Shown: positions 8,533 through 61,970 of the stretch, one piece after another
Layout of the letters: each line of letters opens with the position of its first letter
Numbering within the stretch: the first letter of the stretch is position 1
Origin: Actinomycetota bacterium
GTDB lineage: Bacteria > Actinomycetota > Actinomycetes > S36-B12 > UBA5976
Length of the DNA stretch: 64,000 nucleotides
Assembly (NCBI GenBank): GCA_947452765.1
Contig: CANGDR010000001.1
Location: 258,657 to 322,656 of the forward strand
Direction: 5' to 3'
Translations under genes and position numbers: made by a program
The notes under the pieces: model-generated
What the model was told of the DNA's origin: nothing
Databases searched by the model: none
What the model saw: only the letters and a program-made list of their open reading frames with translations

Positions 8533-8832
8533 TTAAACGATATCGTTTTCTACTACGAACATACGTTCGCGCGCAGATAAGTGGGCAAGGGAATCGGCTG
8601 CTACACCTTTTCCAATTTCGGTTGCATAAGCGGCCTCGAAATCTTCTTTGGAGTCAAACCAAAGTTCAGATACGCCGTCGTATGCGCTGCCATCATCGGC
8701 CAGGTTGAAAACAATCTTGCGTACACCGGGTAGATCAGCAGCTTTACTTGAGTGGTCAACTAACCACCACTGCTTGAATTCATCATGACTCATGGTTTCG
8801 CCACGCTTCAAAAGTATTATTGCTTTTAACAT
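8533..8832 (-). CDS. EthD-domain small protein
   Basis: 99 aa with a ferredoxin-like dimeric alpha-beta barrel typical of EthD (PF07110). Features are the N-terminal strand MLKAIILLKRGETMSHDEFKQ, the HSS motif in WLVDHSSKA and the strand SELWFDSKEDFEAA. Such proteins occur in catabolic operons, sometimes as small lyases, isomerases or hydrolases, but no specific reaction can be assigned. The start codon directly abuts the stop of the upstream DUF1185 gene. A 32-base gap separates it from the DapA-family gene. Confidence 0.75.
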   Translation of the reverse strand: MLKAIILLKRGETMSHDEFKQWWLVDHSSKAADLPGVRKIVFNLADDGSAYDGVSELWFDSKEDFEAAYATEIGKGVAADSLAHLSARERMFVVENDIV

Positions 8833-29832: not shown

Positions 29833-29863
29833 AAAAACCGCTCACCAAGGTGAGCGGTTTTTT
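29833..29863. terminator. Bidirectional terminator between holA and rpsT
   Basis: A 9-bp perfect stem CCGCTCACC (29838-29846) and GGTGAGCGG (29849-29857) is flanked by AAAAA on the left and TTTTTT on the right, so it can work on both strands. Confidence 0.93.
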
Positions 29864-59163: not shown

Positions 59164-59622
59164 CTATCGGATGTGTCGGAATATCAGATGTGTTTGGGCA
59201 TTTCTAACATTTTGATCGCTAGTTAGCAGCTTCTGAATAAATTCCCTTAAAGCTTCGGAGCTTGAGACGGCTACATGGACAAGTAAATCTTCACTTCCAG
59301 ATACATGGAATATCTGAACCACATTTCCGGCGGTACTGATCTTTTCGATTAATGCCGAAGTTGTTTCTTCATCTTGTCGCCGCAGAGATAGGAAAACTAT
59401 GGCTTGCACCCCAAGCCCAATGGCGTTGTAGTCCACGTCGATAGTGAATCTGCGAATAATGCCCCGCTGAACTAAATTGCGAACGCGCATCAAGGTCGTA
59501 GATGCAGCTAACCCAACACCACTAGCCAAGCTGGCGTTTGAAATTGCGGAGTCACTATCGAGTTGGTTGAGCAGTTCAACATCAACCTGGTCAAGAACCG
59601 AATTATTTTTGGAAATAAGCAT
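59164..59622 (-). CDS. Lrp/AsnC-family transcriptional regulator
   Basis: 152 aa from ATG 59622 (GGGAGCTAG upstream); an in-frame start at 59742 would add 40 residues that run into the divergent gene. N-terminal HTH (LDSDSAISNASLASGVGLAASTTLMRVRNL region, about 18-47, written here as its extent) and a C-terminal RAM/AsnC ligand domain with VHVAVSSSEALREFIQ. It probably senses an amino acid and controls the divergent PLP-enzyme gene and itself through the palindromes at 59666-59711. Confidence 0.88.
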   Translation of the reverse strand: MLISKNNSVLDQVDVELLNQLDSDSAISNASLASGVGLAASTTLMRVRNLVQRGIIRRFTIDVDYNAIGLGVQAIVFLSLRRQDEETTSALIEKISTAGNVVQIFHVSGSEDLLVHVAVSSSEALREFIQKLLTSDQNVRNAQTHLIFRHIR

Positions 59623-59665
59623 TTCTAGCTCCCGATATTCGAATTTAATTACAGATTCTCTGCTA

Positions 59666-59711
59666 TTTCCGAATGTTATTCGAAAATTGAGCAATCTAAC
59701 GAATAGATTGC
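59666..59711. promoter_or_regulatory. Candidate operators between the Lrp gene and the PLP-enzyme gene
   Basis: TTTCCGAAT (59666-59674), GTT, ATTCGAAAA (59678-59686) forms a palindrome matching at 8 of 9. A second, perfect one has arms GCAATCT (59691-59697) and AGATTGC (59705-59711) around AACGAAT. A further TATTCGAA half-site is at 59636-59643. The spacing and dyad form suit an Lrp/AsnC protein. Confidence 0.55.
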
Positions 59712-59723
59712 AAAAATCAGGCC

Positions 59724-60932
59724 ATGGATTCAAATACTTCATTTCAAACCCTTGCGGTGCATGCTGGCCGGGAGGACCTGACTGAACTAGGCGTTCATGC
59801 CTTACCTATTGATCTTTCAACCACTGCGCCGCTCGTTGATATTGACTCTGGCGGCCAGGCCTACGAAGTCATGGCAACTGGCGGCGTATATAAGGGTCAA
59901 TCCAGCACGGTTTACCGAAGGCTCTGGAACACCACAGTTGGTCGATTCGAAAGCGCCATGGCACAACTTGAGACGCAGCGCATCGCCCAAACTGGCGGCG
60001 ATGCTGAAGCGTTCCAAGCAGTTGCTTACGCAACTGGAATGGCCGCAATTAGCGCAGTGTTTCTATCTCGCGTTAAAGCCGGTAAAGATCATGTGGTTGC
60101 AGTTCGTCCGCTCTACGGCGGTACTGATCACTTATTGGCCAGCGAGTTATTCGGGGCGAAAGTTAGTTTCGTTGAAGCGGACCAAATTGCATCGGCAGTT
60201 AATGGCAGCACAGGACTTGTTGTGGTTGAAACACCAGCTAACCCAACTTTGCAATTGCTAGATATCGGGGACATAGTTTCGCAAGCCGGCGGTGTTCCGG
60301 TAATGGTTGACAACACTTTTGCCACCCCAGTCCTGCAGCAGCCGTTAGAACTTGGCGTAACTTTCGTAGTGCACAGCGCAACTAAATACATCGGGGGACA
60401 TGGCGATGCCATGGGTGGCGTTGTAATCACCACCGAAGAACACGCAATTGAGCTGCGACAAATTCGCGCAATTACTGGCGGACTACTCGACCCGCAATCC
60501 GCATTTCTGTTACATCGAGGTTTACCAACCTTGCCGCTTCGTGTTCTAGCTGCGCAAGCGACCGCAATCGAATTAGTTAAGTGGCTAGGCACCCAATCCA
60601 AAATCAGCAAAGTTTATTTCCCAGGATTAAATGGCAGTGATCCAAATGGTTTGCTTGGCACGCAAATGCTGGGCCCAGGAGCCATGATCGCAATCGATAT
60701 GGCAGGTGGTTTCGCGGCGGCCCAAGACCTTTGTCGGAATCTGTCGATGGTGACCCACGCAGTTTCTCTTGGAAGTACTGACACTTTGATCCAGCACCCG
60801 GCTGGCCTAACCCATCGCCCGGTAGCAAGTGAAGCCAAGCCAGGGCAAGGAATCCTGCGAATTTCGGTTGGGCTGGAAGATACTCAGGATTTGATCGCCG
60901 ACTTTGAAAATGCCTTAAGCAAAACCACCTAA
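59724..60932 (+). CDS. Cys/Met-metabolism PLP enzyme (cystathionine gamma-synthase/lyase type)
   Basis: 402 aa, fold-type I PLP enzyme. The Schiff-base lysine is Lys221 in SATKYIGGHGDAMGG, and VYRRLWNTTVGRFE near 63-76 holds the phosphate-binding Tyr/Arg. At the position where methionine gamma-lyases have Cys the motif is YGGTDH (131-136), so a cystathionine gamma-synthase/lyase or a cysteine/homocysteine lyase is more likely than MGL. Divergent from the Lrp regulator, with operator-like palindromes in between. Confidence 0.85.
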   Translation: MDSNTSFQTLAVHAGREDLTELGVHALPIDLSTTAPLVDIDSGGQAYEVMATGGVYKGQSSTVYRRLWNTTVGRFESAMAQLETQRIAQTGGDAEAFQAVAYATGMAAISAVFLSRVKAGKDHVVAVRPLYGGTDHLLASELFGAKVSFVEADQIASAVNGSTGLVVVETPANPTLQLLDIGDIVSQAGGVPVMVDNTFATPVLQQPLELGVTFVVHSATKYIGGHGDAMGGVVITTEEHAIELRQIRAITGGLLDPQSAFLLHRGLPTLPLRVLAAQATAIELVKWLGTQSKISKVYFPGLNGSDPNGLLGTQMLGPGAMIAIDMAGGFAAAQDLCRNLSMVTHAVSLGSTDTLIQHPAGLTHRPVASEAKPGQGILRISVGLEDTQDLIADFENALSKTT

Positions 60933-60935
60933 CTC

Positions 60936-60992
60936 TTGCGCCTTGCCAAACCTAGGCGTATAGTGGCATTAGTTGAACATTCAACTAATGCC
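60936..60992 (+). promoter_or_regulatory. Pirin promoter with perfect palindromic operator
   Basis: TTGCGC (60936-60941), 17 spacer bases and TATAGT (60959-60964) form a good promoter. Immediately after it lies a perfect palindrome with 13-bp arms, GGCATTAGTTGAA (60965-60977) and TTCAACTAATGCC (60980-60992), split by CA. A repressor bound there would cover the transcription start. The core AGTTGAA-TTCAACT resembles MarR-type operators. No MarR gene is in the window. Confidence 0.75.
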
Positions 60993-61004
60993 TGAGGAGG
61001 CAAA

Positions 61005-61970
61005 ATGCCTGCAGTAACCGCCGACACCATGACATTGCCGCGCCTATTCATGGCACCGGATGCGACATCGCGCCGCGTAAAGATGATTACTAGCGCACCA
61101 CAGGCATTCGAAGGCGAAGGCTTTCCAGTTCGCCGCGCATTCGCAGGAATTCCAACGGCCGATCTTGATCCGTTTATTCACATGGATCAAATGGGCGAAG
61201 TCGAATACCTACCAGGTGAACCAAAGGGAACTCCTTGGCATCCGCACCGCGGCTTTGAAACTTTCACCTACTTAATGGATGGCGAATTTCTGCACCAGGA
61301 TTCACATGGTGGTGGCGGAACCATCCGCGAAGGTGGCACGCAATATATGACTGCCGGCGATGGCATCTTGCATATTGAAACTCCACCCGAAGATTTAGTT
61401 ATGTCTGGTGGGATCTTCCACGGCGTCCAGCTTTGGATCAACTTGCCAAAAGCCAAGAAGCGCATTGAACCTGCCTACCAAGACTTGCAAGGACCTGATT
61501 CCACCATGGTCTCGACTGCCGACGGTGGCGCATTGATTCGAGTGCTAGCTGGCAGTGTGGATGGTCATTCTGGACCAGGTATTTCACACACTCCAATTAC
61601 GATTACCCACGTTTCGATTGCACCTGGCGCTCGCGCAGATATTCCATGGCGCAAAGATTTCAACGCGCTGGCTTACGTGCTCAATGGTTCCGGAACTGTT
61701 GGCCCAGCTGGACATCCAATTAAGACTGGGCAAATGGCAGTGCTAATCGATGGCGACTTTGTAACTTTGCAGGCTGACCAAGTTCAGGAATCCCGAAATC
61801 AAAACTTAGATGTTTTCTTGATTGGTGGCGTGGCATTGCACGAACAGGTTTTCCAATACGGTCCATTTGTGATGAGCACTAAAGAAGAAGTGATTCAAGC
61901 CATGGAGGATTACCAGGCTGGTCGCTTCGGGCACATCCCAGTTGACGCCATAATGCCGCATCGCGCTTAA
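61005..61970 (+). CDS. Pirin-family protein
   Basis: 321 aa bicupin. N-terminal metal histidines are in PWHPHRGFETFTYL (about residues 71-84) and HIETPPED. The RAFAGIPTADLDPFIHMDQ start is typical. Pirins bind Fe and some act as quercetinases or redox-linked regulators. GAGGAGG lies 6 bases before the ATG. The strong palindromic operator just upstream suggests control by a stress or redox-responsive repressor. Confidence 0.88.
   Translation: MPAVTADTMTLPRLFMAPDATSRRVKMITSAPQAFEGEGFPVRRAFAGIPTADLDPFIHMDQMGEVEYLPGEPKGTPWHPHRGFETFTYLMDGEFLHQDSHGGGGTIREGGTQYMTAGDGILHIETPPEDLVMSGGIFHGVQLWINLPKAKKRIEPAYQDLQGPDSTMVSTADGGALIRVLAGSVDGHSGPGISHTPITITHVSIAPGARADIPWRKDFNALAYVLNGSGTVGPAGHPIKTGQMAVLIDGDFVTLQADQVQESRNQNLDVFLIGGVALHEQVFQYGPFVMSTKEEVIQAMEDYQAGRFGHIPVDAIMPHRA

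Follow-up and report, generated by a model that had tools for sequence, protein, structure and literature searches.

The closest solved relatives of the regulator discussed here are two MarR proteins of Streptomyces coelicolor, AbsC (SCO5405, PDB 3zmd) and SCO3205 (PDB 3zpl). According to the main text of the 2013 study of SCO3205, this protein recognises the consensus TTnAAnnnTCAA, and its binding has been tested by SPR at the operators of the extradiol dioxygenase gene sco3204 (O3204), its own gene (O3205), the YceI-like gene sco5533 (O5533) and the malonic-semialdehyde-reductase-like gene sco5049 (O5049) (PMC3737563). It binds its own two sites with KD values of 1.3 and 2.4 nM and leaves footprints of 24 bp; 13 residues contact DNA through their side chains, and Arg72, Ser73 and His77 read the bases (PMC3737563). 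In the same main text AbsC is described as implicated in zinc-dependent antibiotic production, SCO3205 is assigned no function, and no clear theme is seen among its targets (PMC3737563).

Here we describe a perfect dyad upstream of a pirin gene in a draft actinobacterial genome (1.6 Mb, 46 contigs), which is very probably the operator of an AbsC/SCO3205-type MarR protein, P0001, encoded elsewhere in that genome. This reading draws on sequence comparison of several kinds: the site itself, its conservation, its recurrence at other genes, the homology of the regulator and the agreement with the published consensus and targets. A MarR operator is an ordinary element; what is new is its placement, which makes pirin a probable conserved target of AbsC/SCO3205-type regulators. 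In the literature searched, pirin was not found as a target of this group: the word is absent from the main text of PMC3737563, and the supplementary target lists of that study, which lay outside the search, may include it. Unlike in the SCO3205 system as that main text presents it, the best site here is a perfect dyad at pirin.

The dyad and the promoter of pirin

The window, that is, the whole stretch of 64,000 nucleotides that was analysed, contains on its plus strand a gene for a bicupin pirin of 321 amino acids (61005..61970; Pfam Pirin and Pirin_C, PF02678 and PF05726), preceded by a ribosome-binding site GAGGAGG (60994..61000, plus strand) read from the sequence. Its putative promoter, also read in the sequence and on the same strand, consists of a -35 element TTGCGC (60936..60941) and a -10 element TATAGT (60959..60964) separated by 17 bp. 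TATAGT directly abuts the proposed operator (60965..60992, no strand assigned), in which an inverted-repeat search finds a left arm GGCATTAGTTGAA (60965-60977) and a right arm TTCAACTAATGCC (60980-60992) complementary at 13/13 positions around the centre CA; the ATG (61005) lies 12 bp 3' of it. The initial annotation had described TTGCGC-N17-TATAGT followed by a perfect 13-bp-arm palindrome whose centre is 2 bases long, and it is exact in each of these details. Comparison of sites delimits a conserved core TTAGTTGAACATTCAACTAA (60969..60988), in which the dyad satisfies the consensus TTnAAnnnTCAA as TTGAACATTCAA on both strands; the 12-mer alone is not rare, with 2 matches on one strand of the window and 4 on the other. 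A copy of the site with 3 mismatches at 8744-8763, within a 99-residue reading frame (8533-8832), is probably due to chance.

The close named relatives of this pirin are actinobacterial MAGs, several of them labelled Candidatus Nanopelagicales. Within the genus, pirin was detected in 20/23 genomes (E 1e-40), and the core TAGTTGAA-NN-TTCAACTA lies upstream of it, with at most 2 mismatches in 18 bp, in all 18 genomes examined, whose flanking sequences differ; G030, where the contig begins within the gene, and G037, where the gene is divided over contigs, were left out, and the pirin of G023, G025 and G032, which are among the 18, is just 52-53% identical, so that it may not be strictly orthologous. 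A simple sigma-70 scan of 60700-61100 returned no promoter, because TTGCGC agrees with TTGACA at just 3/6 positions, and the assignment of the putative pirin promoter rests on conservation across the genus: TTGC and TA...T, the latter 5-6 bp 5' of the core, keep their 17-bp spacing in 14/14 promoters tested (G020, G023, G025 and G032 left out).

Among 80 named pirin loci, 78 were scanned, the other two having no gene start, and 42 of them have the core, with up to 4 mismatches, no further than 90 bp from the start. The -10 element lies just 5' of the dyad at 11 of these, L032-L042, the closest of the named relatives, which overlap the 14 genus promoters by position and identity. It lies inside the right dyad half at 9/42 (TAAACT in 8, TAAAGT in 1), and neither layout was recognised at the remaining 22. 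One operator thus accompanies two promoter layouts of the same gene. At four Gordonia loci (L075, L084, L104, L105) a MarR gene follows pirin, and at three of them, L104 being the exception, a different dyad, TTGCTCA-N4-TGAGCAA, stands upstream of pirin; hence pirin seems to have been placed under other operators too.

P0001 as the candidate regulator

At 59164-60932 of the window, a gene for an AsnC/Lrp-type regulator overlaps head to head with a gene for a PLP enzyme of Cys/Met metabolism. This regulator (59164-59742) was considered as the cognate one and rejected, since it belongs to the wrong family and its divergent partner is the PLP-enzyme gene (59724-60932) rather than pirin. The initial annotation had noted that no cognate regulator is adjacent to the dyad, and a candidate is indeed encoded elsewhere, on another contig than pirin. 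P0001 (C19:11534-11983) is a protein of 150 residues with a MarR winged-helix domain (PF12802, 50.5 bits; PF01047, 42.4 bits; both above the cut-off). Its best solved relative is AbsC (3zmd, E 2.1e-39, residues 2-147 of 150), followed by SCO3205 (3zpl, E 4.8e-33, residues 3-147), the next one reaching 1.2e-10; it shares 73/145 residues (50%) with AbsC and 62/145 (43%) with SCO3205.

The likeness extends to the recognition helix. Nine DNA-contact residues of SCO3205 were compared (Arg60, Met61, Thr62, Arg72, Ser73, Arg74, Ser76, His77 and Arg81), which cover part of the 13 side-chain contacts described for that protein, and 8/9 are identical in P0001; Thr62 is replaced by Ser, as in AbsC. The counterparts of the base-reading residues are Arg69, Ser70 and His74. 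P0001 also has the Trp/His salicylate pocket in common with AbsC, and both residues, Trp13 and His116, are invariant in 61/61 aligned rows. Cys90 is kept in 58/61 rows, which leaves room for a redox route of release.

A site at the gene of the regulator itself is a further feature shared with SCO3205. A search for a MarR gene preceded by the same site, as suggested in the initial annotation, led to P0001, with TTAGTTCAAGTTTCAAGCAA located 18 bp upstream of its ATG. This site is weak, having 3 mismatches and no perfect dyad with 6-bp arms. It is found at 16/21 genus orthologues and is missing from 5/21, and in more distant relatives the own site of the MarR gene is often degenerate or unrecognised.

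The distribution of the dyad can be compared with that of P0001 relatives, with the proviso that the genomes in both the genus and the co-occurrence counts are related and not independent. Across the family (43 genomes), pirin occurs in 30 (E 1e-40) and relatives of P0001 in 29 (E 1e-10). Ten genomes of other genera have pirin; the dyad (at most 4 mismatches in the 20-mer) is present in seven (G011, G012, G014, G015, G017, G018, G019), and the three that lack it (G004, G005, G007) all belong to genus g2, in which 0/7 genomes have a P0001 match. Against a strict correspondence, the dyad is present in G012, G017 and G018, as well as at the named loci L054 and L098, where no P0001 match passes the cut-off; incomplete assemblies may be the cause in some cases. 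In G015 and G019 the dyad coexists with a P0001 relative of just 38%. A sample of 50 of the 80 named loci was hand-chosen to cover dyad and non-dyad cases. At the limits given above (up to 4 mismatches, no more than 90 bp away), the dyad stands at pirin in 18/19 genomes whose P0001 relative is close (E 1e-40 or better), 8/24 with weaker relatives and 2/7 with none, and shuffled upstream regions reach the dyad criterion in 2/2500 cases. In L051, the one of the 19 without the dyad at pirin, a nitroreductase gene is the immediate 5' neighbour of pirin and is preceded by a tandem pair of sites. Hoyosella rhizosphaerae and Actinocrispum wychmicini are examples of named species that combine a pirin dyad with a relative of P0001. 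L058 and L059 of this sample seem identical to G015 and G014 (same MarR scores) and had thus been counted before as family genomes.

As a general rule, transcription starts about 7 bp after the -10 element, which at pirin would be within the dyad. A P0001 dimer would bind the 20-28 bp site on this predicted start, right behind the -10 element, and once bound would block the polymerase and stop initiation of pirin transcription. In the alternative layout, with the -10 element in the dyad, the dimer would cover that element and the spacer, which likewise fits repression. Full repression, as the initial annotation had proposed, is plausible from the position of the dyad. Release would follow when an aromatic or phenolic compound occupies the Trp/His pocket as effector, and through its weaker site P0001 would also repress its own gene.

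Further sites and alternative readings

Beyond pirin, the initial annotation had implied a regulon, and second sites do exist in the same genome: a pattern search finds 11 places within 3 mismatches of TTAGTTGAANNTTCAACTAA, the pirin site included, and 0 for the reversed control. Four of the 11 lie directly 5' of genes, namely those for pirin, P0001 (C19), a YceI protein (C27) and a LigB dioxygenase (C7). Of the others, one falls in the 3' end of yidD, ahead of yidC (C15), one close to a WhiB-like gene (C9) and five within other open reading frames (C1 twice, C13, C16 and C21), not all of which are necessarily genes. The sites of pirin, P0001, YceI, LigB and yidC all match TTnAAnnnTCAA. The assignment of the core to the MarR type in the initial annotation agrees with the published consensus of SCO3205 and with its target set as given in the main text of that study, since an extradiol dioxygenase and a YceI-like protein are targets there and LigB and YceI genes carry the site in this genome. 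Unlike in SCO3205, the gene of the regulator is on a different contig from the dioxygenase gene.

When the 23 genus genomes were searched with the 18-mer, allowing up to 2 mismatches, they gave 115 matches versus 39 for the control, with 2 to 7 per genome versus 0 to 5 and one genome, G022, below its control; as the control count is high, single matches prove little, and a constant gene at a constant distance carries the weight. Among the matches listed, YceI genes follow the site in 11 loci, that of the own genome counted, and 7 of these loci have it twice, 21 bp apart; LigB genes follow it in 8 loci besides that of the own genome, and a DoxX gene and a gene for a luciferase-like monooxygenase in a single locus apiece. 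These numbers are not frequencies because the loci were selected by the presence of the site. Nitroreductase is encoded in 4/23 genus genomes (E 1e-25), with the site upstream in 4/4, and a search of the own genome at the same threshold found none; judged by annotation, the genus enzyme may be the counterpart of sco5049.

Three additional genes were observed near sites. The yidD dyad, TAATTGAA-NN-TTCAACTA (L021:3889-3908, equal to C15:11388-11407 of the own genome), lies in the 3' end of the gene, 25 bp before yidC. In a comparison of 25 loci, of which 3 were left out (pieces of G012 and G006), it is present in 10/10 genus genomes among those listed, and by-eye inspection of 13 genomes of other genera revealed none. 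In G039 its halves are swapped and the encoded amino acids altered with the dyad kept, which favours an operator over a coding constraint. A dyad with 2 mismatches is found directly upstream of a moaC-like gene in seven loci (L198:3299, L202:2956, L210:2927, L213:2781, L216:1733, L231:969 and L233:578), the identity being supported by Pfam MoaC for the L198 protein, the one checked; yceI is about 1 kb away in 5/7. Three genomes have half-conserved sites in the vicinity of a WhiB-like gene (L024:4148, L225:2057 and L232:2070), and two of these loci adjoin a diacylglycerol-kinase-like gene, both names coming from sequence reading.

It could be argued that a different MarR protein is the main ligand of the pirin site, above all an AbsC-like paralogue of about 165 residues encoded on C7, which is 32% identical to P0001. 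Upstream of its gene (L031) there is a perfect dyad with 10-bp arms, AAATGGTTGA-N4-TCAACCATTT, with equal half-site spacing, and the resemblance of its TGGTTGA-N4-TCAACCA to the pirin site makes cross-binding possible. However, this dyad lacks TTnAAnnnTCAA, which the pirin, P0001, YceI and LigB sites all have, and a second P0001-like match (E 1e-10) exists in just 5/23 genus genomes (G000, G021, G028, G038 and G039), as against the pirin dyad in 18/18; we therefore regard this assignment as unlikely. The third MarR gene of the genome (C1) has no perfect dyad with 6-bp arms within 200 bp upstream, a criterion by which P0001, whose site is imperfect, would be missed as well.

The other readings dispense with a DNA-binding protein or with any function. 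A perfect inverted repeat 12 bp from the pirin start codon might act as RNA, forming a 5' UTR hairpin that controls mRNA stability or translation. This is very improbable, since the conserved promoter would set the start inside the left arm, leaving the RNA without part of it, since the dyad is not fully transcribed at the 9/42 named loci whose -10 element lies in its right half, and since the half-site sequence itself, beyond its capacity to pair, recurs at unrelated genes. A chance or purely structural origin of the palindrome, with no regulatory role, might be suggested by the own-genome matches inside open reading frames (6/11, yidD included), which do count against the set as a whole; at the pirin site this reading is hardly credible, as 0.005 dyads of this class (arms of at least 13, centre 0-4) are expected per 64 kb and the site is kept in all 18 genus genomes in spite of varying flanks, a conservation that contradicts it. 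A first-order Markov simulation of 20 sequences of 64 kb produced none, and the window holds just one other dyad of the class, which has perfect 14-bp arms (AAAAACCGCTCACC/GGTGAGCGGTTTTT, 29833-29862) and is terminator-like.

A possible theme for the regulon

With P0001 as the preferred regulator of pirin, it seems to control a small conserved gene set tied to aromatic or quinone chemistry. In addition to pirin and its own gene, P0001 would repress the genes for YceI and the LigB-type ring-cleaving dioxygenase, and in relatives those for nitroreductase and other proteins. Pirin is a quercetinase-like cupin and YceI a binder of isoprenoids and quinones. The gene set (pirin, dioxygenase, YceI and nitroreductase, with the single DoxX and luciferase-like monooxygenase loci) suggests a function in the handling of aromatics or quinones, and, taken with the conserved pocket, an aromatic or quinone signal. 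The redox or phenolic-stress regulator that the initial annotation had implied is consistent with this gene content and with the conserved salicylate pocket. A similar gene content, including dioxygenases, nitroreductases and DoxX, characterises the quinone-sensing MhqR/YodB MarR regulons of Firmicutes, whose operator sequence differs from the site described here.

Tentatively, and with more doubt than attaches to the pirin operator, P0001 might govern an aromatics and quinone stress regulon of small-genome aquatic actinobacteria that comprises pirin, YceI, LigB, nitroreductase, DoxX and, via an operator in the 3' end of yidD, yidC. If this were true, the uncharacterised SCO3205 group would gain a physiological theme and, through the insertase gene yidC, a tie to membrane protein insertion.
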